64,000 bases of DNA from Siphonodentalium dalli (lineage: Eukaryota > Mollusca > Scaphopoda > Gadilida > Siphonodentaliidae): positions 34,100,918 through 34,164,917 of the forward strand of contig CP136062.1 of NCBI GenBank assembly GCA_032622095.1, written 5' to 3'. Position numbers and translations under genes: made by a program. The notes beneath the pieces were generated by a model. That model was not told where the DNA came from, made no database searches, and was given only the letters and a program-made list of their open reading frames with translations. Positions 1,961 to 60,900 of the stretch are shown piece after piece (position 1 is the first letter of the stretch; each line of letters opens with the position of its first letter).

Positions 1961-2032
1961 AGTTACACAAATATAGATAAAGGTTATCGCAGTATACATT
2001 GGATGAGTATAGTTCCTGCTAAATATAGTTAA

Positions 2033-2624: not shown

Positions 2625-2628
2625 TTAA

Positions 2629-3330
2629 AGGTTATCGTTGTACATTAGATGAATATTGTTTGTAAATTCCTAAATATATGTTTATGACGCACATTACCCC
2701 ATTTCCATCCATAGTTATGCTACATAGTACCCCTCCCCATTTATGTATGATGTATATGACGCTCGTCTCACAGTTATGATGTATATCATCCCCCTCCCCA
2801 TCTCATAGTTAAGTTTTATGCCAATATGGCAAAGTGCATGGCAGATATAATAATTTGGGGCAACTATAGTTGAAGGTTATCGTCTCTCATTGGACGAGCA
2901 GTTACTCAAAATATAGTTAAAGGTTATCGTTGTCCATAGGATGATATTGTTTGTAAATTCATATATATATATATGGAAAGAGTTAAATGGTTTCCATACA
3001 TGTATACACACGGCAAAAGTTTTATCGCTGTTCAGATATCGTATATTTAGATTTTTAAAATCTTATTATAAATGGTCCACCTTTTCTGGTGGTACGTTTA
3101 TGTTTTTGTTTATTGTTATGCAGTGTTTAACTATCGGTATATCTTGATGGTTTTGGAGGAAAAATAATAAACCCATTTTGGAAAATGTTTACTATACCTC
3201 CAGCTGGAAAAATGTGGCCAAATTTCCCTCTCCATCAAAATACATGACATCAAACTAGATAAAAACCCACGCGAACGAGAGTCTCTCTTATCGGTAATCA
3301 CGTTAATTACGCTAGCGTATGATCATATTA
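2629..3330. repeat. 5' flank with short direct repeats
   Basis: Three related segments around AAAGGTTATCG followed by a CATTRGATGA-like stretch and TGTTTGTAAATTC lie near 2629, 2870 and 2923; a fourth is at 1980-2030. The rest up to 3330 is unrecognised AT-rich sequence. Confidence 0.45.
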
Positions 3331-3640
3331 TTCTCTGATAATGCTTTTTAAATGTTTATGTGTTCCTTGCCGCGCAGAATTTACACCAAAGCGGAAGAAT
3401 AATGTAATCCTGGTAACTACTTCAGACTGTCCATGTATCACGCTGATGAAGACCAACTCATTACTTTTCTCGTGTTTACGCTATACCACTGTCGACAAAT
3501 TCCTAGATACTAATCGCTGTTAATGAACAAACGCACTTCAAACAGTTAGCACTTCAGACTGTATTCTCGACGAGTATCTCAAAGAACACAGTCTGAGGTG
3601 CTGACTAATATTTCTAGACCCTCACCGATATCTATGGACT
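3330..3640. repeat. Dispersed repeat upstream of exon 1, shared with 45830-46210
   Basis: Both loci share ATAATGCTT, a CCGCGCAG block, GACCAACTCATTACTTTTCT and a terminal AACACAGTCTGARGTGCT. One copy lies just upstream of exon 1, the other just upstream of exon 4. No coding content recognised. Confidence 0.6.
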
Positions 3641-3687
3641 AAAAAAATATCATAAAGTCGCAATCGTGTCGTCACATAACGAATAAG

Positions 3688-3903
3688 ATGACAATGTTCA
3701 AGGAGAAAGAGCGCACTAATATAAAAAACTATGTGTACTCTCGCCAGGGATCATCCATTCTTGAGGTTTACATGTATGTGATATACAACTATCTAATTAA
3801 GTACGTTCCAACATACGTGGCGCCGAATTTTATCTCGTTATATGGACTTTTGAACAATGCAGTTGCATGTTTGATCATATGGTCGTTGGATTATGAATCT
3901 GGG
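3688..3903 (+). CDS. CEPT1-like: CEPT-like exon 1 (start codon to residue 72)
   Basis: Opens at ATG 3688, with a second Met two codons on, and ends phase 0 at a gtaagt donor (3904). Reading on past the donor gives an unrelated tail and a stop at 4137. Residues 15-22 (YVYSRQGS) and 43-55 (YVAPNFISLYGLL) align with the family's HRYSASGRS and MAPNxITLxGL blocks, followed by the start of the first membrane helix (NNAVACLIIWSL). The N-terminal leader is short, about a dozen residues before the first conserved block, so an additional upstream coding exon cannot be excluded. No promoter element was recognised upstream. Confidence 0.85.
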
Positions 3904-6900
3904 GTAAGTACATGTATGCATAAATGCACATATTGTGGGAGAACCACATCCGATTTGACACCAAACTTACTAAACGCAAGTATTTCAATAAATGTTGTAT
4001 TACAATTGCAAGCACACAACTTCATTCTTTCATATAAATTAGATAACGTGACTCTCGTTGGCAAAATTACTCTCATCTATTTATCCAGCCTGTTCTCCAG
4101 AACATCCGCACATTATCTGCTTACGTTATCGCTTTAGGTCAGTAATCGGTTGAGAATTGCCTCTTTTTGAGTCGATAATATGCTGAACATGAGAACGTTG
4201 TAGTCACATTGTCGACTCACAATGACGCGATTCTAAGCAGATTATGCACACACAATGATTTTTAGCCAACTCGCGATTGTTCAAGTCAACGCTACTTAGC
4301 ATGTGTTTTCACTGTGGCCATAACACGAAATAGCGGAAATGACTCTACTATCTGCTTATTTCAGAATCAAATAATCACATTATATACCTATTTCACTGTA
4401 TAGTTCGATATGTGCGTATTTGCGCGAGGATTTGTTTTTTATCGGTGATTTTAGACCGGCCCCCAGATGAGGGTAGTTTCACTCGAAAGGATAGAAATGT
4501 TGACGCTATCTTCAATTATCCTTGCCACATGGGGGGTTCCAAAATACCGTGGTATCCAGGGCGGAGCAGGTGGAACATATTTTTTGATATTTTTAGTGTT
4601 TTTGACCTGCAAATTTCAGTATAATCAGGAAAACCAATAAAACAAGACAAATGTCGAATAAAGTATACTTTAATATCATATATTTATTATATCTGGGCTG
4701 CTTAACATTAATCTTGTGCAATAAATAATATTCTCCAACTTTGTTTGTGAAAATGCCAAAAACATTGCAAAAATTGCAGTGCTTTTTAAAAAATGTTTTT
4801 CAGAAGATTTACTAAAATTTATCATTTTTTGGAATAAAGCACTCAGTGGTGCATCAACATTTTTCATAATTATAAACCTGATTCGTTGATATCAACGTCA
4901 CAACCACTGATATCCAACAAACCGAGATATTTTTAAAAACTTAACCCTCCCCTAAAACTTATTTTATATCTGAAAATACCTGTCAAGTCAGAATAGCACA
5001 TTTTTGTTCCGTTGTGTTAACCAATAAAGAGTCTTATCATATATCATGGAATTATAATGTATCTGGGGTGTTTTATGTTATGGGAGAGTCTATTTTGTTT
5101 AAATATTTGATTGTTTTTGGGTAAATCAGCTAAAATGTTCATTATTTTTAAGTGAAAACATTCTGAAAAATTTCCATGACTTTGTCGGATTTATGGATAC
5201 AGCTGCAAAACATGCACCGGAATAAGCATAAATTCATCCCCAATACCAGGCATTAAATTATATAATCATGTACCAGACCAGAAATAAGAAATAAAGTTAA
5301 ACTTAACCCTACCCCAAGATAGTGTTCTTACTGCTTTCAATGTTATGATATATGCTACTCAACTTGAAATATCACTCAGACTAGTGGATCTAATTCATAC
5401 CACATATTGCAATAATATTGCCCACGGATTATGCAATCTCATCTTCACAGTCACTGTCAATTTTATCAAATGTGATGGTATCAGGCAACATAATTACTAT
5501 TCAACATCTTCAGGGAAGTTTGGTTCAAACAACCCAGGTTGCATATAGGGCGTCCACCCATGAAGTGCTATATCGGGGTGGTTGATTTGGCAACGGTTGC
5601 AAGTATCCACTGTTTTTGGTATCATGTGGGGTCGTTTTGGGTGTAGAATTAAAGATTCCTTACATGATGGAAGTGCAGAAAGATCAACTACCTTCTGCTG
5701 ATTTTCAAACTTCTGCTAATTCACTTTTCTCGAACGTTGACCATATATGTATATGGCACATGGTAACTTCTCGATTGTATTAAGAGTGTCACTGTCCAAA
5801 ACCCAATGCGTTCCTAAATAAGCCATGACTTCCATATATTTTGATCATCTTTCCAGCAACTTCCAGAAGACTTTGTTTTCCTTTTCGGAAAAACGATGAA
5901 AGGTAATTATTACCTGTGAAGAAATGCAACCCAATAACTCCATTCTTCTGTATATTTGGCTGCCAAAATGTGGAAAATGGTAGATATTGCCCCACAGTGC
6001 CCCACAATCGCTTACAAGTTGTGGTTGATGTATACAATTGGATATTCTGCCTTCTATACATTGAACACTAACATGTTTGATGCACCTTGGTTAATTTTTA
6101 CTTAATTTGTCACCACTGGTATTACCATACATATTGGATGTTTCTCTCACAAACTTGACATAAATATCGGGGACAAAAATTTCAAGTAAAATGTAACTAT
6201 ATTTGATATGAAAGATGTTTATTGTTTTGATCTACCTTATATGTGTCACATTAATGTTACCAAATTACTTAAAATGGCTTCCGAAATGGCAACCATATCT
6301 TTTACATATTTAGGTAAATAAGAGTTTCTGAAATGTTCTGTATGCGAACGGTATGAATATAATTTGTCAGGTTCGCGCATATCATATCGATTACTGGCAA
6401 CTTGTCTTGATCGGGGTGGCAACATGAGCGTGAGGTAATTGGGGACTTGGTTGTTTATTATTTTAAACATGGTGTGCAACTCGTGAAGTTCTCGTCGAAT
6501 TTCAAGCCTTGACCATCCTACTTCGTCAAACAAGCGATTTATATCTACGGAACGCGTTAATCCTGTTACTATTCTTGCAGCATCCTTGTGTATGTCATCG
6601 AACTTTTTAAATAAGTAATATGTTGCTGTGCCCCACACTACATCGGCATAGTCTATAATTGGTAATATATATGCTATGTATATTTTTTCAAGCGACTTTC
6701 GGTCTAGGTCGTACTTCAGTCTTCTTAATTGTGAGAGACGCGATGTTGCTTTGTTTGCTATTGTATTTATATGAGTGTTCCAGTTTAGATTCGATTGTAT
6801 TTCAAGTCCAAGATGTTTGTGTGAATTTGTAAATAATACATTTTCTTGTTCAAATTTTAAATTCGGGGTCACGTTGTTATTTGTAAGGGAAAAGGAAATT

Positions 6901-15900: not shown

Positions 15901-18900
15901 CTCCCCATCTGTCTGTCTGAATATATATGTGGAGATTCTATGAGGAAACAACTATTTTTTACCATCTTACCATCCGCCCAGAACATTAAACCTTTCTAAG
16001 GCTGAAGGGGTCACTCTCACCAAAAAAAGTGCTGAAGGGTACACATGGTTTGAAAATGTGCTGAAGGTTTGTGATCGCCACTAACACCGTTACTTAAACT
16101 GTGTTTCTGAAAGTCTGACGCCCATGAGCAGTTTGTTTTCAGTTCATTTTCTGTTCATTGGAACGTAATCAATTATTTTCTAACAGAAATCATGGCAGAT
16201 ACGAAATCTAAACGTCATTTAGAACGACATTTCAAACCCTGTATACCATTCAGCACATTTTCAAATCCTGTGTACCCTTCAGCACTTTTTTTGGTGAGAG
16301 TGACCCCTTCAGCCTTACTAAGTTAGATACATGTAGGTCTACCATTACATATAACGCTGTAAGGCAATAAAACCAATTATGCTTTTAAAGCGTAATGGAG
16401 TTACGCTTAAGCATAATCAGCCATTACATGTTAGATTGATCTCCCATATAGTACTTAATATATGCAATGACAATGTTGTTGTTTGAGCCATCCAAATGAT
16501 TTTGGAGTATAAATATAAGCAGCAAGCGAAATAATTGAAAAATAATTTATTATATATGATAAACAAGCATAAATTATAAATAGTTAAGCAATAGTTCCTT
16601 GTTAGCATTGTTGAAAACACCCCATACTGTTGTTCCCCTCGCAGAGCAGATAGAAAACCGTCAATGTCACTGATATCAACAACCGACTATTCCAGGTGGT
16701 TCCATTCCACAGTTGTTTTAACAAAGAAGGAGTTTTCGTATTGTGAGCTGCTAGTACGCAGAAGTTGGAACGATTCTGTGTTGTTACACACCTCCTTCTC
16801 CACCGGATTTTGACTGACACGTACAGTCCTCAAATTTTGTTGGCTGTAGCCTGTATGTGCCTTGTGTTTTAGATAATCAGGCTTAGGAAGTGCTGGGAGC
16901 AACCCCATGACTATTTTGTGGTATTTAACCAGTCGCTGTTCTTTCCTTCTGGGAGCTTTACCTCAGACAGCATGTCTGTGACTGATCCATCATCTCGTCT
17001 GTATATGTTCTTTTCTGTATCTCAGTGTTCTTTGAGTTTAAGAGAGATCTCGAGGTCAAGTGACCAATTTTGAATGGGGATTTCCATGCAAATCTGCAGA
17101 GCAAAATTTAGAGTTGCACATACTTCTGAGTGTGACTTGATGTAGTATTGAAAACAACAGGTATTTACAGGGACGCCAGAAGCATCAAAGGGCAAGGGGG
17201 CAAACCAACCAGGGGGGCACTTTTCGGGTACCCACTGGCCTCACCTGAGTCAGGCCAGCAAGGGGGGCAAATGCCCCCGTATGTCCCCCTTCTCTGGCGT
17301 CCCTGGGTATTTATCTGGCGACTGGCGTGTCCAATTGGAACTTGTTCCATTATAAATTATAATGTTGGTGTATTTATTTTTGAATTTTATATTGATATTT
17401 CGAATCTGACAAATATAAGTTATGTAGGTCAAGTGATATGTAATTCCAGAAAAAAATTCTCAAAAATATATTTATAGCAAAATTTTATAATTTACGAAGC
17501 GGACCCACCAGATAAATACCTGTTGTCTAGTAACACATCAAGTCACACTCAGAAGTATGGTGACACTCCACAGTTTCAACAGGTATGGGCCCAGAAATAG
17601 GGGGCCCATAGATTCATTGAAATTTATCTGGATTATGATCCCAAACCATATAGACAATATATATATGCCTGAAATTAGTACAGAATAGGCATTCAGAATT
17701 TGATACATAATTTCCATAATATATGGGCTATCAAGAGTTATGGCCCTTGATCTTTTGATCGAAAATGTGATTTTTATTCAAAAAATGACCAAAATATTGC
17801 ATTTTCATACCCAAGAGGCACGAATACCAGATTTTTTCAAGCATGGTCACCTATGTTGGTTTATAGGTCTCTGGCTTCCAACATCAATGTGAAAAAATTT
17901 CAAACTTTCGCCGTTAAATTTTCCAGAAAATCAATTTTTAATGCAGATGACAAATTATGGGTGCTAAAAAATTGACCCAGTATCTAGAGCCACTGTTTCG
18001 CAGAAAACGCTACTGCTGTCTATGGGCGGGGTCAAGGTCACTTGCACTTAATTTTTTCATCAGTCGAGAACACCTTCTAAAATTACACAAATTCATATCC
18101 AACCTTGTCTTAATATACATACCACATTAATGGTGCCAGAAACCACTACTAGTAGCACTTTATATCTATAAAATCACCCCTAATGATCATTCGAAACTGT
18201 GGAGTGTCACCTTAAGGGGAATGCAATTTCACTAATCTTTAATAGGGACCACACCTCCATATTCTCTGCATTATACCGCTTAAAATGATATATTACACCC
18301 CATGCGTTATTGCAATCACAGGCAGCAAGATTGGGTGGGGATTTACATGCACCCCCATGATTTCACCTCTTTTGGGTCTTTCAGAACCCAGTGACGTTAT
18401 GCTTGACGTAGTGACAAAATGTATATAATCAACCATCATTTATAGCTTGAAAAAGGTCTGAAATGCTAAAATGTTGTATAAAATATATTATGAGATGCAT
18501 ATTTTCCTCAGATATCAAAATAAAACTTAATATTTCATGCAACTACTATCTTTAATACTCTCCCAAAACCATGGGTTAAACAATTCCAAGTCTTATTTAG
18601 CATTAAGGGAAAGCTATACACGGTTATGACATCACATGAACAATATGTTGTCAAGTGAAATATGTCCAGGGAAACCTGAATTATTATATTTCACACTTGT
18701 GAATAAGAAAGACTGAATATATAATCTTTTAGTATACTGTGTAATGTCAATGTCAGCCTGTTCAGCTAAGATTCAAGGAACATGATGTCATGAAGAAGTA
18801 CCCATCATCTAAAAAATCATCAATAACAATACACATGAACCACCCCCCCCCCCCTGCTCCAAGACTCCATATCCCCACCAATTTATATGTCTAAAGGCCA

Positions 18901-21900
18901 CCTGTATTGGAATATCCATAGAAGAATGGTGTATTTAACATAAAATGTTCCTTCTAACTGAGCAGATTTGCTAAAAATGATTTTCAATGTAAATATATGT
19001 CAAGTTGACAGATGATAATGGTGCTATTTGCTGGTCTTTAAGGTGACACTCCACAGTTTCAACAGCTATGGGCCCAGAAATAGGGGGCCCAGCATAGATT
19101 CATTGAAATTTATCTGGATTATGATCCCAAACCATATATATATGCCTGAAATTAGTACAGAATAGGCATTCAGAATTTGATACATAATTTCCATAATATA
19201 TGGGCTACCAAGAGTTATGGCCCTTGATCTTTTGATCGAAAATGTGATTTTTATTCAAAAAATGACCAAAATATTGCATTTTCATACCCAAGAGGCACGA
19301 ATACCAGATTTTTTCAAGCATGGTCACCTATGTTGGTTTAGAGGTCTCTGGCTTCCAACATCAATGTGAAAAAAATTCAAACTTTCGCCGTTAAATTTTC
19401 CAGAAAATCAATTTTTAATGCAGATGACAAATTTTGAGTGCTAAAAAATTGACCCAGTATCTAGAGCCAATGTTTCGCAGAAAACGCTACTGCTGTCTAT
19501 GGGTGGGGTCAAGGTCACTTGCACTTAATTTTTTCATCAGTCGAGAACACCTTCTAAAATTACACAAATTCATATCCCACCTTGTCTTAATATACATACC
19601 ACATTAATGGTGCCAGAAACCACTAGCACTTTATATCTATAAAATCACCCCTAATGATCATTCGAAACTGTGGAGTGTCACCTATATGCAACTCTTCAAC
19701 TTTTGCTCCGCAGATTTGCATGGAAATCCCCATTCAAAATCCACCACGGCGGAAGACACACACCATTCGTTGCTCTTTCCAATTTTTCGGCATCTTCCGC
19801 TTACGAAAACTTCTTATTTGATCGCAATTTTGATCCTTATTTTGCCAATTTAAGCTCAATATATCTCAGTCTTTTTCTAACGATATCCTGACAGTGAAAC
19901 CATTCTTGACAGAACACAGGGATATCCCCAATCTATTTATAGCATATCAGGCTGTATCAGGGGAGATAAACCATGCATGCAGTTTATAGAAGCGTTAGGA
20001 ACAGGCAGTAAACAGCTGATTTCAACAACAACAACATGGTGGCGATTATTTGTGAGTCCCTTTAACGTGATTTTGTACCCGTCCTATAGTGATTTTGTTG
20101 AATATTGTGTGTCGTCAGCAACAACAATGGTAAGTTTGATAAATATTTGCATGATATCGTTACGTTTTGATGCGCGGTTGGGTAGAACGTGTCCCAAACA
20201 TGGATACAACACCATTCCCGTGGCTGTGGACCGTATATATTTATGCTGAGAGGCGCCGATCACTGAGAATTCTGACTGAAAACAAGTAGACCGCTCCCTC
20301 AAATGCAATTTTGTACACCCCGGAGGTTTCCCACTCGGTGTTAGGTGTCTCGCGTCGTTTGTGGGTCAATATACCATGCTATATGCACACAAGTTAGAGA
20401 GTAAAACATCATTTTCCGTTTAAATAAAACGTTTTCCCATCACACACTAGGCTCCTGTTCTAATTATGCTGAGGCTCCTGTTCTTAATACCAAATAAATC
20501 GCACGCTCCTGTGATTTCCATTGGAAATCACATAAATATTTGGTAGAAGTTTTCACAATTTGAACAGATTTTCAAGGTAAAACGTGGGTGAACATGTTGT
20601 CTAAAGGTAGTGTGAATATTCAGCGATTGATTGGGCTTTATATATATATACATATGTCCGTATATGCCACGCCCCAATATGTAGGGAAATATCCACTGGT
20701 TGTCGGGCAGAAAGATGCTACACACCCCCCCCCCCCCCCCCCCAATATTTTCGGGTAGTTTCTGCCCTGACTAGTACTAGTGAAAGTATAAAAATACCGC
20801 GCGCATAATAATAAATTATTCTTCTCGGTAAAACTCTTTTATGCAATAGGGCGAGGTTTGTTTTGAGTACATTTCTAAGTTTTGTAATCAAATCGCCGAT
20901 TCGCGCCAAATAAACTTGAGTGGGTCAAACTTTTGAATCAATGCATTGTACAATCTCGGATGTACCAAAATAGATATAAGGGTCACTAACTCCACGAAGG
21001 GACACAAATAAACACAATACATACATGTTATAACGTATATGTCCATTTGCCCTCCCACGATGGCGAGATCAAAATAATGTCATCAGCATCCTTATTTGTA
21101 ATGTACCAACATGTAGACATTGATTGGATATAGTAGAGTCGCTTATGTACTTTCGTGGGAATTTTTTGAATAAATGTAGAGACTATGATATTATGATAGG
21201 GTATCACTTACTTTGTCGGAAAAGTTTGTTAGACTTCATGGGTCCGCGACTGGAGAGAATTATGACGTCACAAAGATGGCGTCATTGTCAGTTCAGTTCA
21301 GATGTAGGGTTGTCATAAGAACTGACGAATTCAATTTCTTAATTGTTATATACATTCTTTTCAGTTAGGGCAATTCATCAATAGTAGTTCTCGAAGTACA
21401 GTACCCAATTTCACGGGAAAATGTTATTCCAGTCAAAGATGGCTGCCAAAATGGCACTAAAAAATCAACAATTATGCGATTTTCAAGAATCTCATGTAAT
21501 GACCTTCCGTTTGGTATCGACTGCGAATTGTGACAACTCTGTGTTTAATTATTGCTTCAGCAATGTGGTGACCAATTGTATTGTACAACACATGTTCGAT
21601 CTGTCAAAAATCCACTTTAGACAATCGAATTATAGCATCTTGTCAAAAATTAATTCCGATATTGTAGCAATAGATTTAAAGAAATGAGCGGCATTCAGTG
21701 ATGGGAAAGAAGTATTCGTGCCACATACGGAATTATTATCACACTTCAACAAAACTGTTCAATTTCGTCCAAGATGGCTACCAAAATGGCGGTCAAAATA
21801 CAAAAGTCAGTGTTCGTTACGGTACATCACCAAATGTCGCCCTGGCATTCCATCATGGGAATTAGGTTAATCGGCTACTTTTAAGTAAATGCGCATAGCT

Positions 21901-30900: not shown

Positions 30901-33900
30901 CCCGGTGACAATAGCGATCTAATATGAATATTATATTATAAAATAACTAATTTGAGTCGACGATGTCTACTGAAAACGTTCCGGTTAACAGGCTATCGTA
31001 AAAGTAAAATTGAATTATTCAATATAAATTAATTTATGGCTGGAGTCATAAAATGGAGAATTATGCCATTACAAGTTACCGTTCTTGAAATCGCATATGT
31101 TGCGTGTCTTTTATCGACGAACATTATTGAGTTGCAAACAAAACATGTTACCTGCAAAAGAAGGCCCGTTATAACCGATTCGGAAAAAAGGAGAAAGAAA
31201 CAAGAGTCATAAAGCGTCAAGTATTTTATAGGGAGTGAGATTGTTCGATGGAAGAGATTGAATGCATCAATCGAAGCTGTGAGCAATGAACTTCCGGTTA
31301 TTCCTGCGACCTGCGTCTTCTCCGGTGAAGGTCAAAAACATGGCGCGTAGTTTGAAATCGTAATATTTTTGTTTCCAAGATCAAAATTTTCTTCGCTAAA
31401 TTAGGTTTATACGAAACTCATATCACACGAACACAATCTAACTTGAAAGTTATTTCAATGGGAGTAAATAAAAAAATCGCCTATCTTTGTGTACAGTACC
31501 CCTTTAAGCGTGAGATAATTATGTGATAAATATAGTTACGATGTACATGTAGGTTGTATACAATGCTAATGTATCAAGCTAATACTATTCCGAAATTTGC
31601 CTTACTTTCATCTGTTTATCAGAGATTTATTCTGGCACAGCCCATTGTGCTGAACATTTTGACAGTTATAGCTGAATTGTGTATTCTTAAAATGGGTCGT
31701 AAAATATTAGTTTGATGTAGTAAAATAACCAAATAATATGTCTTTAATCTGAAAGAAACATACCGTAAAAACGTCGTAGCAATATCCCTTCTGTTTTCAC
31801 CCAGGAACAGCAATGAGACGCTTGTTTGCTGCTATATCAGGAATAGGCCAACAAATCTGTATTTTCATCATTCATCTCATTCTATTCTCTTCGTATTGGC
31901 AAACAAGTCTCTATTATTCCAAATTGAAGAAAAGATGGAACCCGACTGTTCTAAATGTTAGAACGTATAGAGCATACACCCTGCGTATAATGTATTTAAC
32001 ATATGTTCACACCTATTCTGACCACCGTAACCCGATAAGAATGAATTGTCATACTTTTAGATTTCACGACCCGTTGAATAAATCCTGCCGAGGCGTGTAT
32101 TCGTTGATATATTTGATTGTTGGTTGATTGACTGATTTATTGATTGATTGGGGTATGATGTCGGTTTCAGCAACTAAGGCCATATATCACGACATTGTCA
32201 GTTTTAGTGGTTGGGAAATCCGCACACTTACGGTTAATATAACAGTGATACCAATTGCCGATGAACTCGTCGACCATGAACGGCAAACAACTGGCAAATC
32301 CACCAGATAACGATTTCGAGTTACAAAGTCCACGATGGAAACATGTGGATTTGTATCCTCATCGTCTGCGCCGGAGGGCGAGACGGCTTTCAGTTGCACC
32401 CCTAACCGACTGAGCCACCGATGTCCCTTTAATTACTGGAACCGAACCCGGATATCACCTTAATGTTTGACAATTAACGGTCGCATTTATAACCCCACCG
32501 ATCGCATATTATATGGAAGGGCCGTGTTGATATCGCAACCATTGTAGATATATGTCGGATCTCAAATTTGGTACGCAGTATAATAGCGAGTTTTCGATAC
32601 CCGTCCAACGGGAACATGTACGGGGAAATCGGTGAACATCGTCACGGCCACTTGGGTACTTTCAATGCAGCACATAAAGCGAATGGGATTTGGAACGGGT
32701 AGATTGTCCCATTGACCGGTAACATTCCACTACGATTTTCTCACTCAAAGGTTTCATGAATTCCATGAAAATGTAGTCAGCTACAAAAATCCCAATTCTT
32801 GGGATAAATATTCCCGTTCCCCGATCATTCGATTCCAAAGATTCCAAACCAATGTTTACTCACTATATTAACCACAACATGTTATTAATGCAGTGAACAT
32901 ATTTGTTATGAAAATATTGGCCTTCCCTATTTATCTAAGTGTTAGAATCCGCCTCGAGAATGTCAGCATAAAACCCGGCTTAAAATGACAACTTCATTGA
33001 TATTTGCCCATCAAATCTTGCAATAAATAGGTTAACGCATAGCTGACTACAATTTCATGGAATTCATCAACCTTTGAGTGAGAAACCTTACATTACAACA
33101 TTTTCCGGTAAATTGTTATTGAAACATGACACGAATATGTATTGCAATGGAAGTCTGTTACATGAGATTGTGAGGCCCATCCCCACTTATAATTATGTTG
33201 GCGGCATGCATAATTTTGTCAGATCTTGAATCACTTGTGTTTTTGTTGATGACGGGAGAGGGGTATCGTTAGTCCCAGTGGGACAGACTTACATCTAGTT
33301 CCGTTCTTGAATCATCGTGCTTAGTTCAATAGAAAATAATGGGTGTTTTGCCTACCCGCTGATTATTTCAGCCATGGGCAATATGTTCTCCTACAAAGAT
33401 ATCGTCACCATCAAACGCTATTTTAATGAAGTTGTGTTCGCATTATCCATTTTAGAATTTTAGATTTATTCTCCGTTGTTTTATTTTGTGTGTGTGTGTT
33501 GACAGCCACCTGCATGGTGCTTTCTGATGTGCATAGTGTCTGTCCTGATATATCAGACGGCAGACGCTTTGGACGGGATGCAATGTCGACGTATCTGGAA
33601 GGCAGACGGTCCCATAGATGATGTGGTGGACCACGTATGCGATGCGATATCAACAAGTAAGAATCATAATTAAATATGCACTCTGTGTACTTTCCTAGCC
33701 GTTTTACTTGCTCGAATATATGTTGTTCTTGATATAGTGCATTTGTTTTTTGTTGCAGGAACTCGACTAATGTTTTTTATGTAGTGCACTGTTAAAACTT
33801 TTCCGTTCTCATACGGTACAAAGTTCCGGAAAATTGCTGCCGGCACAATGTACAGTAATGGTCACGAAACATTGTACCATTTCATTACGGCCATATGTTC

Positions 33901-36900
33901 TGTACGGCGAAAGAACAATGTTCCATATTCATATAGGACATAGAACCGTAACAAAACGAGAGTTTCGCATTGAGCGTCGCCTCGTTATATATAAACTAAC
34001 TACCTGGACTATATATAAACCAAGCTTCTGGTGAATACGGCCCCATGACGTGTCGACTTCAAAACATGCAATTTGACCAGAGGTGACCGATCATCAACAC
34101 TATCCACGGATTAGTTGACATATTTGATCCCATTATTCCCTGAACTAGTTGTGCATATATGTGACACATGTACAGTTTTGTATTGCGCGTTCGCATTTAC
34201 ATTTCAGTATTCTTGTCAGTAATGACAAGTATAGCGATATGCGCAAATGAAACCCAACAGACAACAATCTTGACGTCATCGATGGTAATATTTGGCTTAA
34301 CACACGTGCGAGCATACGTCACCGGTACGGTACATTTCGAAAGGTGAGCATGATATATGTCTAAGTCACTTTAAGCAGTTTCTAAAATGTATTATGCTGC
34401 CAGTTTGGATGGTGTCTGATGATATACATGTTCGGTAAACTATTTAAGGACAACTGATATACGCAACAGATATGATGTAGTCGAATTTGAAATCAAATAA
34501 TTATTGTGCAGCGTAATCTAAAGTTATGATCACATATATAAATATCTAAATGCAGAGGTGAATATGATACGATACGTCCACCAACATAGTATATATATAT
34601 CTTTATTATCCTCCATATATGGAGATTCATATATAAATGTTACATTATGAGAACAAACACAAATTTGGTACATAACACAGTGTATTAAAAATTAAGGATT
34701 ACAAACATATCTACAACACATGTCTCAATATGTATGACGAACCAACTACACATATACACACACTCATGCACTACATGAAATAGACATTCCATTCTACAAC
34801 CATATCGTACCTACAGACAGAGAAATAGCATACTCCGATACGACCAAGCTGGAGTTGGACCCAAATCAGGGATCTCTCTCTCTGGAAGACCCACAAACGC
34901 CAATGCCTTTGTGCAGTCTTACCGACTCGGAGCCGACCATTTCCCCAGCACTACTTACAGACATACAGACGACAGTCAGACAAGCAGGCATACGAGACAA
35001 ACAACCAAACAAACGGCAAACATACATACATACAAATGTACTTACTGGTAAAACAATACACAGATACATGTGGTATGAACAATTACGAACACGCTTATAA
35101 CTGCATGTTATGATCGAGTTTATATGAAGGTTTGGGAGATCTAGTCAGGACTTGGCGTCAGTCGATCAACATATACTCGCCAGAGGAATGCAGCTTTGTT
35201 CACGAAAAAATCTATTAGTTTATTGTCTTCTTCGGGAGCACAGTATATGTTTTCATGTAGACATGTTAGTAGAACGCGCGTTTTGGATTCTACATCCAGT
35301 TTGTCATATTGCATATAAATGTCTACATGAAACAAGTTTAGTAGATCGAATTCAAAGGTATTTCGATCGTCGCAAATGGCAGAACATTCGATTAAGGCAT
35401 GTTTTACAAGATCTTTATGTTTGTTGTCACATAGTACGCAGGTTTCCTCATTTGTTTCCAGTATGCAAACAAGGCGTGCAATAAGTAGATATGATTTTTT
35501 ATGGGCTGGGTATATGCGACAATTTTCCCATAGCCGGGACATGCATAACGTTGGATGGACGGCAGCGAACCTGGCAAGTCGAGTATCCTCATTTACGCTC
35601 ATGTCCCAATGTTCTCTATTAACTTTTGACCATGATTCGTTTATGGCACATTTCCATGTGGATTTCTTAGGGAATATTGAATTTTCGATGTAGTTTTCAA
35701 GAGCTTCGGTCATGTCATATTTGTTAAGAGTGTCAATGATGTCAGACATGTAACTTGATGATGAACATGTAGTGCCAACTATGTACTGATATAAGCGCGT
35801 GAGAAATACTTGTTTCACAGTTTTAGAAGATGTTAAGTTGCACAATGAACCGAAAAGTGACAATTTACGTTTTTCAATAAGAGATAGCATTGACGAGGTT
35901 CCGACCAATCCTTGGGCTATAACCGTTTTGGTTTAGATTCCATAGTAGTTCTGAACATTTCAGTATTCTTGTCAGTAATGACAAGTATAGCGATATGCGC
36001 AAATGAAACCCAACAGACAACAATCTTGACGTCATCGATGGTAATATTTGGCTTAACACACGTGCGAGCATACGTCACCGGTACGGTACATTTCGAAAGG
36101 TGAGCATGATATATGTCTAAGTCACTTTAAGCAGTTTCTAAAATGTATTATGCTGCCAGTTTGGATGGTGTCTGATGATATACATGTTCGGTAAACTATT
36201 TAAGGACAACTGATATACGCAACAGATATGATGTAGTCGAATTTGAAATCAAATAATTATTGTGCAGCGTAATCTAAAGTTATGATCACATATATAAATA
36301 TATAAATGCAGAGGTGAATATGATACGATACGTCCACCAACATAGTTACATTGTATATACATGTGAGAGTCATGCACACATAACGTACATAACTGTGTTA
36401 CATTTTTGCACAGTCAGCACAACATATTCTCGTGCAAATAGGTTCATATTGAACCTATACCTGATTCTGAAATAAGCCCATATTGAGATAAAACCGATTA
36501 TCCCGTTGAATAGCGCGCGTCGCAGTGAAAACACACTATAAAGAGCGTGAATTCCGGTATGCCGCTTTTTTCTATTTTCGATAGCAATGACACTGAAAGT
36601 GTCTGTGGTTATCTGTTTTCGTTTCCTGAAATCATTAATATAATTATGTAACTAATTATGGGTGAAAGTATGTTCATCTGGGATTCTCCCGGGGACTCCT
36701 AGAGGTGAGTATCGATTGTCCGAGTGTTGTTTGGTTCTGAAGAGAATGAGAAGTCCACATTGTGTGGTGGCTGAAAGTCCATATGAAAGGTGGATTTGAA
36801 TTAATACCTCCCCGGTGGTTTCAGTCACCTCTTCGTTCAGTCAGGTCCGCGTGCTCTGCCGCGTCCACCAACACACGCGCGTATTGCCATTATATGGCTT

Positions 36901-39900
36901 CGGTTTGTACTTCGGGGGCATGAATGAATGTTGTTTAATTTTCGACGTTAAGCGTGACTGACGTTGATTTATTGACATCTGTCTTTGGAAGTGCTCGTAG
37001 TATTATTTTGCTCTTCTCATTATCCTTGCACTTCAGTTATCAGCATGTCGCTAAGGTCCCCCGCCACCTTTGTTATCGCGACGACGAATGCATGTGTCGC
37101 CTTCAAATAGCAGGAATTTCGCACGTAAAATAGCCTATTTGACAGCGACCCAATTATCCCGCTGGTTTGCCACAAAGCGAGAAATCGACGAAGCATAAAA
37201 TATCTGTTGTGATCGCGCCGTGTTCAGCGATTCAGTCGCTTCCAACTGTGGAACAATTAGACAAAATTGGGAGACAGTGAGGCACCACGTCCATGTGTAT
37301 ACATATGTTTGTGTGTGGCTTTTGACAAACATTAGCATGAACACATTCGCAACAATGTTCCAATGTCATTACTGTAACGTCAGTCACAACTTTGTAACAA
37401 ACTAGATTATGTTTGTCACCATATAATTGATCTGCATGGTCACTACTATTAAATTTCTCAGCTCAGCGCGTTCATACAAATAGGAATAACCACTTTGATT
37501 GGTCAATCGAGGAGCGCCGTCAACGTCCTTTGATTGGATTTGCCAATCCGGTGACTATCCGATCGAGCATCACGTTGTGAGGTAATGGACACATATATAT
37601 ATATATAGGTACAAGTCTTTATTACGTCGTGAATAAGATACAAGCAGTGTATACAAATATGACAATCGATGATCATAGTGTTAGAATAATCGAGCCTCTA
37701 CGTATTAGAGGCTCGGAAGTGGAATAGGAAAAGCATGATATCTTGGGGAATTGTATTTACTTATATACCATTTGGGTGAATACATAATGAGGTGTTTGGT
37801 AATACACATCGGGATTGGTCCCGCTGTTATGGTAATTTCCTCTGACCATATTTGGGGAGCCTTCTTCATTGTGTGTAGGTCTTGGTAGGGAGTAAGACGT
37901 GTGAGGTTTCTTTCCTTAAGGAACCGAACATGGATATTCGAGTTTGGGGTATATATATGTCCTTGAATCAAGTTATGGGAATATAATGGGGCATGTGTAG
38001 TTATGTCACATACCTCCCATACCACGGAAGATTTTCGGCTTAGTTGAAAATCTTTAGTTCTATCAAAAGAAGGGACATAATGGGGGTGTATGATATGTTG
38101 ATCTGGTTAGCTTGATTGAAGGACAATGATATATACATAGTTATAAGTAACATATAGCATATTGGTAATAGACGTACATATAATAACAATGCATTCAATA
38201 ATAAAATGGTGAAATAAATTATGATGAGAGACAATTCGTTTTTACCATTGCTGTAAATGTTTGCACATATTTATACTTTTAGATATGAAAGTGTTGGGGT
38301 CAATTTGACCCTTTGGCTGGAGTGTAGCATATTGGTTTGGTGATTTATCTTGTCTGATAAGAACACGTGTGTTTATGAGATGGTGCTCGTGGCATGTTAA
38401 TTGATCTGTTTCTTGACAGGTGAAAGCGACTTTGATATATTTGGCTAATTAATAGTGATGCTTGTATTTCACAGCCTATCGTGTCATAATAGCGTTGCTT
38501 TGTTGCAGCTGTTCAGACATTTTCGCAGTAACGATATTTGGGGTAGAAATATGCCCCTTATGGAAAATGATGTGGTGAAGTATATAAGTATATAAGTATA
38601 TATATAATTAAATAAATTTGGAGCGCGCGTGTTTGACATATATATAGTCTTATCGAACCCATGTGTGATGGGTCATATAAGTCTGGCTGTATAGGTGAAG
38701 TTGCGTGTGTTTATATGTACAGGGGGGTATGCCTTTGTATAAATAAAAAATAATATCATTGCATGGTGATCTATATCGGTAGCATTGTATATGAATGGTA
38801 ATTGTATGTTCCTATTAAGTTGTATTGATATATTTGAACAAAATGTGTTCCTGACGTGATATTTTGTTCTTGGACAAATTATATCGGAAATTTGTATTCG
38901 TTGTCCTATTGGAACAACTTGATGATTGTACGCGTGTGGGATTTGGATAAAGAAACTTGATGCTTCTTTATACGTGGGTTCTATACATCGTTTCGGCTTA
39001 ATGAATAGTAATGGTAGTATGAACTGATGTTGGACATGTGTTAATTTGAGTTATAGGATCAGATATAGGGCCTATATGAATATGTTATTAATGACAGTTA
39101 ATCATTGGCAACTATATTTGACAATAATATATGGGGTAGGGAAGAATATGATAAATATTGCTTAAGGACTGACAATATTTGTGTCGTTTGGGATAAAGTG
39201 CACATGGTGAGCCTATTTTGGCACGGTACATGTACATGTGGGTAAGCGGCGAGATGATGGCTGAAGTTTGCACGTGAATTTCGTGTTCATGTGTATTGGA
39301 TTTTAGTTTTTTGTTGCACGATATAGATGCGTGTGGGGTCCGTGTATTGCGCGTTACATGTATGTAAGAGTGAGCTTCAGTTACCTCTGTACATGTATCT
39401 GGGATTTTTATGCACGATTGTGCACTCTTTGGGGCTTTATATGTTGCGAGTTACATATATGTAATCGTGAGCTTATGCTAGCTCTGTACACGTATCTGGG
39501 ATTTTTATGCACGATTGTGCTTTCTTTGGCGGCGTTTATTGCGAGTTACATGTATGTAATAGTGAGCTTTAGTTAGCTCTGTACATGTATCTGGGATTTT
39601 TATGCACGATTGTGCACTCTTTGGGGCTGTATATGTTGCAAGTTACATGTATGTAATAGTGATCTTATGCTAGCTCTGTACATGTATCTGGGATTTTGAT
39701 GCACGATTATGCACTCTTTGGGGCTGTATATGTTGCGAGATACATGTATGTAATAGTGAGCTTATGCTAGATCTGCACATGTATCTGAGATTTTTATGCA
39801 CGATTGTGCATTCTTTAGGACGGTTTATTGCGAGTTACATGTAGGTCTTAGTGAGCGTATGTTAGCTCTGTACGTGTATCTGGGATTTTTATGCACGATT

Positions 39901-42900: not shown

Positions 42901-45900
42901 TGCTATGCCAGCCTGGGTAATGTCGCCTTCTACTAAGTTTGGGGAAATTTTCAACAAAATGGACGATATAACCCCATAACAAATATAATTTAACTATATG
43001 ATCAATTGTAAATATTCACATTACGATTGGGGTCGCCACTGTATATGTCAGCGAGAAACTAGCACAAATGATTTCGCCATCGAGGGTCATTTTAATTGAT
43101 TAATTTATAAGAATGCTGATGTGTGTGCTGGCCGAACGAAGGGTGTGGGTTAATACTTAATTTTGGGGTCGGGGTATGTATAGATGAGGCATCTAGATGG
43201 ATACGGGACTGTGCTTGATATATATGCGTGTGCTTTGCGGCCGTGCGTGTGCTATGTCGCTGATTATATTATTGAGTCAAGTATAATTGAAGCAATGAAG
43301 ACGTAACTGAGTTCCCGATTTCCATAATTTTTATCGATATATGTATATATACACTCAAATTGAAAGGATATCGCGATTGCGGATATAAAATATTGTAAGT
43401 GATAGTAGATAATTCAGAATTAGTTTCTTCTGAGATATTTGTCTGTATATACTTTTGAAGTTATGACTTCAGACCAACAGGAGTGTGCCACATGGAAAAC
43501 CCATTCAGATTTAAAACGTGAAGGTGGCATATGCCAAATCAGTGATTGACAGACTGGCATGAGCCGTGAGTAATCAATTGGTCAAAGACGCTAAGTGTCA
43601 GTCATTATCGAAAGATCTATATTACATGTCTATTAGGTTTAATTGCTTCGGCGTTATGACTCAACGTACACCTGTTATCGAGAATTGAATTAGAGATTTG
43701 GGAAATGAGATAGTGCCCTGTTTGATATATATGCTAAATGACCATGCCACTGGCATGGGTCAATATTTTCGCTTTTTGGCAAGTTCATGCCGTGAGATGA
43801 CAGGGTGCCTGTCTCTATGTCTAAGGGGTGGGCTGGGAGAAGGTGTCGTTTTGTCTGCCTTTGTAAAAAATTATCATGAGTTCTATCTAGATATTTGGTT
43901 TGAAGTTAGTTTGCATTATAACGCAACTAATTTGTATTTATTTAATTTGTGTTTAATATGAATTACGCCTTATTAAATTTATTTTTAATGTGAAACGTTG
44001 AACGTGTTCTACCTGCTTTATTGCATGTGAATGATATGATGCGTGTATATGTTGCGTATCTCGTGGAAGGGTGTTTAATACATTAAAGTAAAACGCAGTT
44101 CACATGTTAGTTGTGTCCAGTTGGCAGGTTAGATGTTTTAATGCGGTGGTTTGAATGAAGAGCGTTTCTGGTTGCATGGTGCACCTGTGTTATAGATGGG
44201 GCGGTGTATGCTTCGATGTAATTATAGGAGTTTAATGGGGAATAATTTGTTTTCTTGGATTGTGTTTAATGCAAAATATCACCATATGTATGGCTGTTAT
44301 GTAAATTTTAACGGTTAACGGTTAAATGTTATGTAAGTGTATATTGTTGTATAATAAAGAGTGTCTCGTATGCACGAATCTGTTAGGACCTACTACTCGC
44401 AAATACTGTTATGGTAGGCTATTTTGGCGCGAAATGTGTTTTTGTTTTGTTCCAACGCGTGTACCTGTGTGAAATGTGGAAATGGATGTTTGAAGGGGTG
44501 TGCAAAGTGTTATGTGGCAGAAATGATAAATTGAACGGTCACTCACCCGATTTCCAAGAATAATGATGTGCACGAATCTGTAGAGATGAATGTCTATACT
44601 GGAACTAGTAGGTGAGCTAACGAATGTTTTGTAGATGTGAGTTTGTGGGTGACGAAAGTTTGTCCGGAACCGTGTGTGAATTTTTATATGCGGAGAGCGA
44701 AGTAGTCTGCATGTGGCTGGAGCTGTGTCCGTATGTGAGTGTTTATTGTTGAAGTAACAGCGTAATCTGTTGTTGAGAAAACTCTGTTCGAAGCGTAGTG
44801 AATGGTTATAACTGGAGAAGCACTGTGGACTGTATAGTTGAAGAAGTTGTGTCCGAGCATGTGGCGAAGACTTGAGATATTTATGTAGAAGAAGTGTGGT
44901 TGAAATTGTACGTGTCTGTGTGTAATGTCGTATTGTCAATAATTCTCAACGCGAGAATATTGGTGATCACCGGATCTGCCAATATCATCAGGCTGTGTTC
45001 CGGTGGTTGAGTCGTGGTTGAGATTGTCTGGTTTGTTGGCCGTTGATTTATGCGTTGGTCTAGTATATATCTTGGCAGTGGTCGTCTAGTATGTATCTTG
45101 GCAATGGTAGTCTAGTAGCTGAGACTTCAAGCTGTGTAGAAGTGAGACGCAGAACTGTTCACTGTACCATTAATACTATGTGAGGTAATGGACACATAGA
45201 TATATATAGGTACAAGTCTTTATTACGTCGTGAATAAGATACAAGCAGTGTATACAAATATGACAATCGATGATCCTAATGTTAGAATAGTCGAGCCTCT
45301 ACGTATTAGAGGCTCGGAAGTGGAATAGGAAAAGCATGATATCTTGGGGAATTGTATTTTCTTATATACCATTTGGGTGAATACATACTGAGGTGTCTGG
45401 TAATACACATCGGGATTGGTCCCGCTGTTATGGTAATTTCCTATGACCATATTTGGGGAGCCTTCTTCATTGTGTTTAGGTCTTGGTAGGGAGTAAGACG
45501 TGTGAGGTTTCTTTCCTTAAGGAACCGAACATGGATATTCGAGTTTGGGGTATATATATGTCCTTGAATCAAGTTATGGGAATATAATGGGGCATGTGTA
45601 GTTATGTCACAACGTATAGTCCTGAGCGTCGCCCTTTATAAACTACCTGTAATATGTATAAACCGAGCTGGTAAATACGAACCCTTACCTGAACCGTTGG
45701 GCTGGCTATGTATGACTTAATCTTGGGCTGAATTTGTGTTTACATAATCCTTAATTAACACAATTTCGAAAAACCACGAAAAACGATCATTCAGATCGGA
45801 TAGATATTTAGACGTTATAATCTCTCATAATGCTTAGGAAAGGTATCAGCTGTTTTAAATGTTCTTTTCCGCGCAGCAGTGACACAAAAGAGGAAGAATA

Positions 45901-48900: not shown

Positions 48901-51900
48901 TTGCTGCCGCCGAAATGTGACGCGTCACGTTCAACCGGTGCTGATAGGGTCACTTTGCATATCGAGCCTTAATATTTAAATTGGTTCATATTGGACTTAT
49001 TTGATTCTGAAATAATCCCGTAATTAACTTATACGGTTTATATTTCGTTGAAAGGCACGGACCACCGTGACCAAATTAACTTTGTTCATATTATACAGTT
49101 ATCGCCCGCGCGTGAGTGAGACATGGGGATTTGTCGCCAGCTCGAGACCAGAATGTCACCCGAGGGCCTTCAAGTCCCAGGGTGACATTCCGGTCGTGAG
49201 CCGGTGACAAATCCCCGTGTCTCACGAAGGCAAGGGTGCCAAATGTCTTGTTAAACGACCAACCCGCATGTTACTGCAAATCATAGCTCGAGTAGGCATA
49301 CATGTACAAACTTGTTAAACACATAAATGTATAGTAACTGCTTCGTTATGCATCTGAACATTGAACAAATAATGAGCAATGGAATAATGTTCATTTGTGA
49401 TTGTAGAAGTTGATCGTTACACTGCACCCACTCGCAGAATTGAATCCGTTTGCAGAGTGGCTCTTTGTCGCAGAACTTGATATATTCAGATTCATCTGCT
49501 TGTCAGATGGAGATACATCGGTAGCTGGTATGGGTTCCTGTGTAACTGTAACCGAAATGTTACCATCGCTTCCGTATATTATATTCAATGCGTGACAAAC
49601 AGTTTCTGATATATTCCTTTTCTTCTTGTCACTTACATGGCTTGAGTAGTGCCTAAGATTGCTTTCACTCTTATGCCCAGAAACACACAGTATTTGCCTG
49701 CTATCGACACCAGCTTGATCCAAAATCGTTATGCTTGTTGGACGCATCGAATGATTTGTGTATATTTGTGATAATCTCGCCATTTTGGAGATATTTGCCA
49801 TCAAACCACCGAGAGTGTTTTTCCCAATAGGCGAGTAACAGTACCACTTGGAATCATCCGTAAAGGAATCTCTCGGTTTTTGCCACAGACAGTCGATTTC
49901 AGAATTCACTCTTGAAATATAATGCTCGAAGGAAAGCACTGGGCAGTTCTTGTTACCTAAAAGCGAATAATACATGTACATTGAATTTAAATATGTTAGC
50001 ACGTGTACAATTGCGGGAGGAAAATATAAGTATATGTAGGTGTATAGGAAATGTAACATGAACAAATGCATGGGCCTTCTCTGTGATTTATTTCGGCAAA
50101 CACTGTATTGTAATGTCGATGGCGTATTCTGCAAGAAAGTGGACTATATATGTTAGTTTCATCGATAGTTCGCAGGTGCAGCCTATGACGTCACGCTCCA
50201 GGGACTGCAATGTAAGTTTCACTGCATTTCTCCCGATCGATATATATATAGTGTTCGGCTAAAATGCGTCGAGAAATATCCAAAACAGAAGTATTTCTCA
50301 GTGCTTGCTCAATAACTACATGTGACCCGTCATATCAAAACTAGTCGTAAGTCGAAAAATATTTTGTTTGAGGTATGTGCTGCATGTGCTTTACATAGGT
50401 CGCACACGTAATGTGTTGTTGCGGTCCAAAGTTATAGGATTTTGAATGGCAGCATAAACCGGTTCCAGATATAATCAGAGATAATCGCATTTAAGAACAA
50501 AGAAAATTAACTAAATTCTTAATAAATATACACCGCTATATGTCCAAATTACAAAAGCACATTAATAGACACAAACTTCACTTTTTGCTACTTTATGTCG
50601 ACAGAGTAGAACTATATACAAATGTGTCAGATTTGTTTGGATTTTTAATTTTTTTTTATATTTTATGTATTTACTGAGTATTAGAAATCCCGACTTACGA
50701 CTTGTTTTGATATGGCGGGTCACACATTACGATGCAAGTGTCGAAAAGGTAATCATAAATTAAACAAGAAAACCATAGTCAGAAATGGTAACGCCACCAA
50801 GATCATATTATTAGCCATAAATAGAACTAGCTTTCAAATTCCATGTGGGAAATTTTGATACTTCCATATATCAAGTGTTCCCGTTTCTCGTGTTATACAT
50901 TACATTCTTCAAGTTGTCTTTTTATTACACTAGCTGGTGGGCCCGACTTCGTCCGGGCTGTTTCCCATCTGATTTCCGGCGAAAGGCGCGATTTGACCTT
51001 GAATTGACTATTTTGAAAGTCAATGTCAGATCGGGGTCATGATTTGACCCGTCCAAAACACTCTCCGGAGAAAAGTACCCCTAGGTATCAAAATTTCGTC
51101 GAAATCCATCCGTTTTACCCGATTTTACCTTTGATTGGACATATTGAAGGTCAATGTCACGCCGGGGTCACGATTTGACCCGTCCAAAGCACTCGCCGGA
51201 CAAAAGCACCTCTAGGTATCAAATTTTGTCGAAATAAGTCCGTTTTACCCAATTTGACCTTGAATGACAATTTTTAAGGTCAAGGTCGGGGTCACGATTT
51301 GACCCGTCCAAAACATGCCCCGGACAAAGGTACCCTAGGTATCAAATTTCGTCGAAATCCGTCCGTTTTACCCGATTTGACCTTGAATGACCATTTTGAA
51401 GGTCAAGGTCAGATCGGGGTCACTATTTTACCCGTCCAAAACACTCCCCGGACAAAAGTAGCCCTAGGTATCAAGTTCAAATTCATCCGTTTTACCTGAT
51501 TTGACCTTTGATTGACCATATTGAAGGTCAAGGTCTCGCCGGGGTCACGATTTGACCGATCCAAAACACTTCCCGGATAAAAGTAGCCATAGGTATAAAA
51601 TGTCGTCGAAATTCGTCCGTTTTACCCAATTTGACCTTGTCAATTGTTTTAAAGGTCAAGGTCAGGTCGGGTCACGATTTGACCCGTCCAAAACACTCCC
51701 CGGACACAAGTATCCCTAAGTATCAAATTTCGTCGAAATCTATCTTTGATTACCACACGATCGCATGCTTTCCACTACAGCTTTTAAAGCGACCTATTTT
51801 TACTTTTACATCGACCTAATTACTAGCCTAGTACCCAGGCCAACATAAAAGGACAATCTCTTGGGATATGCATTGACTGAAGCGCGTGATGAAATTGCAA

Positions 51901-57900: not shown

Positions 57901-60900
57901 ATGTGATTTGTCGCCCGGCATCTAACAATACTTGGGCCAATCGGAAGGGAGTAAAATAGGGAGAATTGTAACATATTCAATAGACATTACTAAAAACTGT
58001 TCATCGAATATTTTTACTGATAATAATAAACGTGTGTTGTATGTTAACCGGACACTGCATTATCAGGTCACGCAATCCTGATTGCAGCTATATATTATAG
58101 TTATATTTTACTATAATCGTTCAACCTGGATATTTCCGTATTGTGGATTCGACAAAAGAGGGATATTCCAAAACCATATTTCATAAAATGAATCGAAATC
58201 AGTGTCGCACCAATCCATGTTTCTGTGATAACTTGTCCGGATCCATGCGAATTAAATGATTAACCATGATGGCACATGATATCAAGTCCATTAAGACTCA
58301 ATTGGTATAAATATTGTTATTGTTATTGTTGAGCGGTTCAGTTTTCATGACTTTCATACTTGTGACTTTATTAAATAGATAAGTTGGTGCAAAAGGCAAA
58401 ACAAACAAAGATAAGTTGGTGATAAAGGCTACAAAACAAATGTTATCCAGAGACTGCAATATTGTTAACCCTTCCATGTCTGAAACTTCCTGAAATCTTG
58501 CGAAAGCTATGTGCCAATGCATTATATTATATATGCGAGTCTTTCACAGGGAGCCTAGCATATATAAGAGGATAAATTTGCCTAACATTATGTACCTTGA
58601 CCTTGTAAGACGGTGCATTCGCGTGTATAATTGAGGCTCCCAATGGGAAATTCGCATATATAGGGCAATATACAGAAACAGGATATTTAATGTTGCACTA
58701 CCGCAACTCCCGTCGTGGGAACAGTGTAAATTGACATCATTTAAACCTTTACACAAAACAGGGGAAAACGTTTGTTTTGCACTCTCAAATTCAACTATAA
58801 TATATAGTGCCACTTGGCGGTTTGCGCTCCAAAATACACCTAATAATATTCGCTTTTGAATTTGTCCCGGAATCGAAATAGGTGGTTAAATACTTGAACT
58901 ACCTTAATTTCATGGAACATTAAAGAGCGTTCTGTGTTAGTCTATTCCTGATATGGTGGAAATCTAGAACGATTGTTTGATTTCTTAAAAGAGCTGGGAA
59001 ATATCTGTGACCATTGGAAGTATTGCCGAGAGCACATGAAGCCGGTATATCAGTATTTCGTACATAGAGGATATACAACTCGTCCTCAGTTTATAGCGGA
59101 ATTTACAAAACGAGTCCAGTGAATTAGGTCTGGACCGAGTCTACCGCTATAAACTGGGGACGAGTTGTAGATTATATTTATTACATAACCCAGAACCTCG
59201 GTAAACATACTTAAATCAACAAATGGGACGTGAAACTAACATCGGCTTCTATAAGGCACGCGATGATGTTTCACGTAACTAAGCGTTATTTTTCCGCGTA
59301 AAGAAATAGTCCCAAATAAATAAAGACTCTTTGACGTATTTAATTGCATAAATTTAATGAAATAAATTTTCAAACTCTTCATTCCTGTTCTCCCGAATCT
59401 GAATCTACGATTATTCTCCGACGCTTAATGGCTGGTGCTGGTTCGCTCCTGTCGCAATTATGCAATTTCACTTCAAAAGTGCCGCCATAAACATTTCGGA
59501 AAAGCGAGTTCGCTGTGCCCTGGACATTCATTTGATTGTTTGATGTGTTCGTGTTTGTCATTGTTTTCATCACTGAGTGGATATTTCTCGGAACACTTTC
59601 AACTCTAGCTGGTACGTCTGTTGATATAGTGTTAATTGCATTTTCTGGAGTTACCGATGATTTTCTGGAGTTACCGATGATTTTCTGGATTACCGATGAT
59701 TTTCTGGAGTTACCGATGATTTTCTGGAGTTACCGATGATTTTCTGGAGTTATCGATGATTTTCTGGAGTTATCGATGATTTTCTGGAGTTATCGATGAT
59801 TTTCTGCTCGACGACGACAGAACACGTGAGATTTGTTGATGTTGTTCTGAATTCAAACAGCTGTAGTTGTTTACAGACTGGATGTTTTTGTGACCGCTAA
59901 TTTGTACAATATGGTTTGCCGGGATTTCAAAGTCATTTATTTTCTGGATCATATGCTTTCCTGCACTTTGGATTGACATGTGTTTTTCTGACGAGAATCC
60001 GGCTGTTTTACACATTCGTCGCATCAATGATCCCAGTTTATTCACTCCAATTGGCTGACTATTGAACCACATTTCACCTGGTTTGGGTAGGCCTATTCCG
60101 GTGTGGGTTGCAAGATAGAACGGACGGTCAGCACGATTGAAATCCTTCGGACGTTTATCTCTGTAGATTTTGTAGATGCTGACAATACATTTCAGTGGAT
60201 CAGTGTTATTAGCCCATAATTTTGGACGGATTCTGCGGATATCTCTTGGATTGGAACCGGTCATGATCTCAGTCTGACGTTAATTAAATTCCAAATATGG
60301 AAGAGAATAATCTGGTTCACACAATGTTATGTCATCCCGCACATGTCTCGATGCTCCTCTGTACCACGCAGACCAAAACGAACCGTGAAGTAAAACCAGA
60401 GTGTATTTGTGATGGCCATGGGTAGGGACGATCCGAACTGCTTAGTTTCCCATCGTGCATCGATCTCTGCATCCGAAATTCTGACTTGTGTGGTGCATTT
60501 CCCTTGACATCACGTTTCAACGACTTTTGTTTACATTTGAGGACTTCACGAACCTGTGCAAACTCAACGCTGGTAATGATCGAATAGCCATATTTCTGAC
60601 GCCTCAATTGTCTGTCGAAGCTTGATATAAATCCCCGAAGTGATGTAGGCTCATATTCGGACACATCGGATTTGCGGACACCAATCAGGAATTTGCACAT
60701 CAACGGAGATAGTTCACCATGTGGAATTAAGTGAATTTCCCGGACTGTGTTACCTGTGTTTTCAAGGTAAGTTTTGAAAAGTTTTAGGTCACCAATTGTT
60801 TTATAGAGCGTGTTCTTGCTGCTTTGTTGAACCACGAATTCATTTATGTCGGATTCAAAAACCTCTGCGAACCTTCTATTTTTGAAGACTTGAATTTGAT

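Follow-up and report, generated by a model that had tools for sequence, protein, structure and literature searches.

The window analysed here is a 64-kb stretch of DNA, and coordinates are window positions unless stated otherwise. It contains exons 2 and 3 (numbered as in a first-pass annotation) of a gene on the plus strand. Exon 2 (33557–33656, 100 nt) carries a DGxxxR motif, and exon 3 (34208–34343, 136 nt), which has its native acceptor region, is conserved at a paralogous locus. An identical duplicate of exon 3 is present at 35964–36099, also on the plus strand, preceded by 9 nt of native acceptor and then by LINE sequence. Exons 2 and 3 join in frame to encode a peptide homologous to choline/ethanolamine phosphotransferases. 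Searched against the PDB, this peptide matches 8gyw (E 1.9e-7, 76 of 79 residues aligned), and a Pfam search with the same 79 residues returned no recognised domain. The catalytic motif DG(x)2AR(x)8G(x)3D(x)3D is not intact, the corresponding stretch reading DGMQCRRIWKADGPIDDVVDHVCD with C in place of A, D in place of G, and one extra residue. Because of this degeneracy, the gene is termed CEPT1-like here, with no claim of enzymatic activity. Judged by these homologies, the duplicated exon is part of a CEPT1/CHPT1-like gene.

The first-pass annotation had described a 392-bp segment repeated at a constant offset of 1756 bp, and the repeat is just as described. The same 392 bp occupy 34199–34590 (copy 1) and 35955–36346 (copy 2), neither assigned to a strand, with 391 of 392 positions identical and sharp edges. 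The sole mismatch is at 34546 (C) and 36302 (A), and outside the copies identity drops straight to background. Between them lies a 5'-truncated LINE on the minus strand (34591–35954), which corresponds to positions ~4740–6175 of the 6175-bp element minus a 74-bp internal deletion and is ~99% identical to dozens of other genomic copies. Its 3' end, with the (TA)n tail (...AATAAAGATATATATA), adjoins copy 1 at 34591, and its 5' end meets copy 2 at 35954; relative to the element, copy 1 is the 3' copy and copy 2 the 5' copy. An open frame on the minus strand (35141–35932) encodes the C-terminal 263 residues of the LINE ORF2, 99% identical to ORF2 of copy L034. In the DNA between the copies, similarity to the LINE is confined to 34592–35956. 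We considered filler DNA in the ~22 bp beside copy 2 (35933–35954), at the 5' junction, and ruled it out, as these bases match the element upstream of the 74-bp deletion, with a 7-bp microhomology. Because these last bases are also element sequence, the LINE fills the gap between the copies exactly, and the claim that it does so holds. The AC at the 5' junction can be assigned to either element or target, so that the duplication measures 390–392 bp.

The duplicated block was also said to include all of exon 3 and both of its splice sites. This is correct for the exon; the splice sites are duplicated only minimally. The block opens 9 nt 5' of the exon (ACATTTCAG), and the branch-point and pyrimidine region of the second copy is thus antisense LINE. 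Each exon copy has its AG and GT, and upstream pyrimidine content falls from 72% at exon 3 to 56% at its duplicate. A further suggestion was that the insertion may have created a pair of mutually exclusive exons. The presence of AG and GT at both copies favours this idea, as does the exon length, since including 136 nt twice shifts the frame, as had been pointed out, and joining exon 3 to its copy leads to a stop 15 codons past the junction. However, nothing prevents double inclusion, the second copy has only the reduced acceptor described above and lacks the native branch-point region, and the encoded peptide is the same for either copy, so that mutually exclusive use would leave the protein unchanged. 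On these sequence grounds, a functional pair appears very improbable. The simplest expectation is that one exon copy is used and the other is skipped.

A search of the assembly (2.23 Gb, nine contigs) with the 392-bp segment returned, besides the window copies, one close match, a diverged paralog ~200 kb away, and no further close match among the matches listed. Both exons are matched at this paralogous locus; the exon is 93% identical between window and paralog (9 differences in 136 positions), and the intron that follows is 77–78% identical. In alignment, the paralog (L058) has a single copy of the segment, joined on one side to the left flank of copy 1 and on the other to the right flank of copy 2 (outer edges: window ACCAACATAGTTACATTGTATA, paralog AACAACATAGTTGCATTGTATA). 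This arrangement is a natural empty site, of the form expected before the insertion. The following intron of the paralog carries an insertion of its own of ~5 kb (~988–6025 of the reverse complement), with long inverted repeats and a possible 5-bp TATAT duplication, which looks like a DNA transposon.

Other repeats and open frames are scattered through the window. A 660-bp direct repeat (17556–18212 and 19039–19683; 96% identity, 1.5 kb apart) has AGGTGACACTCCACAGTTT-like ends and seems to belong to another repeat family, not to the LINE. A 435-bp direct repeat (37576–38010 and 45179–45611; 97%) flanks an 8-kb block with a strong G-over-C skew (38–46 kb) and resembles the LTRs of a non-autonomous element. 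On the minus strand, open frames at 49391–50143 and 59770–60979 resemble tyrosine recombinases (Crypton-like) by eye, and two 18-bp minisatellite blocks (61477–61811 and 62696–62958) read CKDVLQ in one frame.

The LINE family and its target-site duplications

A genome search with a 1364-bp query returned at least 40 copies of the LINE, all 96–100% identical (771 first-look candidates). Comparison of 5' flanks gives a full element of 6175 bp with two ORFs and a (TA)n tail. ORF1 has weak coiled-coil-type matches only, and ORF2 contains an APE endonuclease (PF03372, E 3.6e-7; PF14529, E 9e-5) and a reverse transcriptase (RVT_1, E 3e-29). The nearest solved proteins to ORF2 are L1 ORF2p and R2, and the endonuclease alone found no relative among solved structures. 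Truncation at the 5' end is variable, with 5' ends from position 1 to ~4750, and the 3' end is fixed, all copies ending ATAAAGATATATA. Given its ORF2 domains, its variable 5' truncation, and the first-nick preference considered below, we classify the element as an APE-type non-LTR retrotransposon (LINE). All intact copies that include the endonuclease end have SNH at the position of D229-H230 in L1 (alignment to L1 by eye). SNH in place of the usual SDH, together with a reverse-transcriptase motif HADD in place of YADD/FADD, is found in L003, L005, L006, L009–L013, L015, L016, L018, L019, L021, L025–L027, L029, and L030. The roles of the L1 endonuclease residues (D229-H230) are listed in PMC3670995, and their replacement by SNH is a possible element-side clue to the long duplications.

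In 30 copies, we compared the sequences bordering the element on its 5' and 3' sides with each other. These were the best-scoring matches, a choice that favours young and long copies and leaves short truncations under-sampled. LINEs normally duplicate only ~7–20 bp of their target, a short target-site duplication (TSD) being typical but not defining, as some insertions have none. In this sample, anchored duplications were present in 16 of 30 copies and ranged from 19 bp to 3226 bp, 14 of them longer than 100 bp. By increasing length, they measure 19 bp (L023), ~50 bp (L027), 115 bp (L028), 181 bp (L013, 95%), 331 bp (L003), 354 bp (L025), 392 bp (the window copy), 628 bp (L030), 643 bp (L008), 937 bp (L026), 1397 bp (L024), ~1517 bp (L021), 1625 bp (L005), ~1912 bp (L016, 97.6%), 1982 bp (L015), and 3226 bp (L006, 99.97%). 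L003 lies inside a 62-bp satellite, yet its duplication is 100% identical in one register only; L021 is also in satellite, where the best register reaches 98.75%, and L016 is repeat-rich and less secure. The 15 secure values have a median of 628 bp, with 13 above 100 bp and 5 above 1 kb; adding L016 makes these counts 14 and 6. Four duplications (L005, L006, L015, and L024) overran the first flank, and an extended flank completed them as predicted, ending no more than ~10 bp from the element ends. Repeats shorter than 20 bp occur in 2 of 30 copies (that of L014 is 8 bp), and the usual TSD of 7–20 bp thus does not hold for this family.

The same LINE family makes long duplications routinely, from 19 bp to 3.2 kb, and the pattern is seen on all nine contigs examined. 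Many of the duplications are 100% identical, so that the family is of very recent origin and is probably active. The first-pass annotation had suggested searching the genome for other copies of this LINE and measuring their flanking repeats, and at least 14 of 30 copies proved to have near-identical repeats of 115–3226 bp that end at the element ends (>1 kb in 6). Its reading of the window locus as an extremely long TSD gains strong support from these sister copies and from the empty site in the paralog.

No duplication was found in 10 of 30 copies within 2–7 kb of 5' flank (0.5 kb for L017), so other insertion outcomes are common. For seven copies without a TSD, we searched the genome with the 3' flank. 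In the five informative cases, no further close copy of the flank was among the matches listed, which rules out for these five a TSD longer than the fetched flank; of the other two flanks, one is a dispersed repeat and one matched distant places only. The analysis gave no score to two copies in satellite DNA (L004 and L020) and passed over L018, which is interrupted.

First nick, second end, and the cause of the long duplications

In target-primed reverse transcription, a bottom-strand nick fixes one boundary of the duplication, and the other is set by the end used for the second strand. Across 15 sites, the first nick has the consensus AT|(A/T)A (P < 1/5000), and the second end at the same 15 sites has no sequence preference (P = 0.56). 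The first end is endonuclease-like. Human L1 likewise has no second-cut consensus (PMC12809410), and its absence here is therefore not diagnostic of a foreign second end. Insert length and duplication length are weakly correlated (Spearman 0.52, P 0.047; 0.42, P 0.18, with repeat-rich sites removed), a hint that the duplication may grow with the insert. If real, this link would fit a second end that recedes during cDNA synthesis, as a fork would.

The window locus almost certainly contains a long insertional duplication. The best explanation overall, to which we give a probability of about 0.8, is that an APE-endonuclease LINE was inserted by target-primed reverse transcription with a long duplication, the exon being carried along as a passenger of the insertion process. 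A young, probably still active element entered an intron of the CEPT1/CHPT1-like gene on the minus strand; its first-nick end lies at a preferred AT|(A/T)A site, and the 392 bp between this end and the one used to finish the second strand became duplicated. The element would normally make, or use, no nearby top-strand nick. Its cDNA would instead be joined to a 3' end far away, which could be a random nick or the nascent strand of a replication fork, and fill-in would then duplicate all of the sequence between the two ends. We regard this account of the second end as slightly better than an even bet.

Several other histories could in principle leave a LINE between two repeats. The geometry alone would allow tandem duplications to have come first, with a LINE later hitting each junction, but the coincidence would then have to recur at 16 loci, each time with repeat edges that agree exactly with both element ends, and this order of events is excluded in practice. 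Unequal crossing-over between two LINE copies is known for repeats generally. It requires LINEs at the outer edges, however, and the 64-kb window has no other copy of this LINE, nor does the paralog have a LINE at either outer edge; for the window locus, these LINE-free edges refute it. Repeats are also prone to misassembly, but an assembly error would have to account for unique outer edges, for the private mismatch that tells the two copies apart, and for the recurrence of the pattern at many loci on nine contigs with lengths from 19 to 3226 bp, and we give it hardly any weight.

A further alternative is a cause on the side of the host. If germline nucleotide-excision repair (NER), or another step that places the second nick, were weak, all LINEs would be expected to make long duplications, and the length distribution here is indeed like that of NER-deficient cells (PMC5223499). 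On the other hand, ERCC1 (Rad10) and XPA domains were found in the genome, and a second young LINE family shows no long duplication in 5 copies. This control family (L065–L075) has an (AATCC)n tail, an open frame of ~1041 aa, and copies that are mostly 98–99% identical; the 3' flanks of several copies sit in other dispersed repeats. Three control copies with both ends read have no duplication within 320–400 bp, and a local partner of the 3' flank was present in 0 of 5. The comparison of long duplications, 0 of 5 against 14 of 29, gives P = 0.06 with a small control. This contrast is suggestive of an element-specific cause, and a host-wide one seems unlikely.

With insertion by the LINE itself as the preferred reading, it is possible that long duplication is its intrinsic mode of integration, although we put this forward tentatively. 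The element would supply no nearby second-strand nick, a distant 3' end, most attractively the nascent strand of a fork, would capture the cDNA, and insertion would normally be coupled to a tandem duplication of 0.1–3 kb.

Comparison with known systems

Nematode RTE-1-like elements are reported to make variable TSDs of up to ~200 bp, below the kilobase scale. In XPA-, XPC-, or XPD-deficient human cells, engineered L1 made TSDs of 5 bp to 5.3 kb (median 1495 bp, compared with 14 bp in complemented cells), and Servant et al. suggested as the second end either an unrelated nick far from the first or a replication end (PMC5223499). That system resembles the present one in having an endonuclease-type LINE, TSDs of a few base pairs to kilobases that mostly exceed 100 bp, and a proposed distant second end. 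It differs in that a human element was used in repair-deficient cultured cells, whereas here a natural germline family is found in a genome with ERCC1 and XPA segments and with a second LINE that is apparently normal. TSDs >100 bp never exceed 10% in HeLa cells (PMC5223499), and single long-TSD cases reach 29.9 kb (PMC5717806). ZfL2-2 in wild-type chicken DT40 cells gave a 1228-bp TSD in 1 of 25 insertions, the rest being ≤20 bp (PMC2666801); it shares the occasional kilobase TSD, but such lengths are routine here. Human germline L1 has the same 5' truncation, target-primed reverse transcription, A/T-rich first-nick consensus, and absence of a second-cut consensus (PMC12350158, PMC7617806). 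Its TSDs, however, are typically 7–20 nt, with a median of 21 bp (PMC12350158) as opposed to 628 bp in copies with a TSD here, and it has a TT|AAAA first nick and a poly(A) tail where this family has AT|(A/T)A and (TA)n.

Kilobase LINE TSDs have been described before, as exceptional cases in cultured cells and as the usual outcome under NER deficiency; here they are routine in a germline family. The literature searched, which left most subscription papers outside its scope, contained no report of a natural germline LINE family with routine kilobase TSDs, and this missing report is accordingly not proof of novelty. Pipelines restrict TSD length to 5–30 bp (PMC2912911) or to 10–49 bp with 200-bp flanks (PMC13295347), and with standard searches limited to ~5–50 bp, comparable families elsewhere would score as TSD-free.

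How LINE integration is finished, including the agent, timing, and position of the second-strand cut, has been called unresolved (PMC7617806, PMC12809410). A second end hundreds to thousands of bases away, beside an apparently normal LINE in the same nucleus, makes a comparison of the second-strand step one that can be run. Long LINE duplications are also a simple source of exon-scale tandem duplication, and if the intrinsic mode of integration considered above is true, it would make this LINE a natural generator of tandem, LINE-separated duplications of exons and gene segments.
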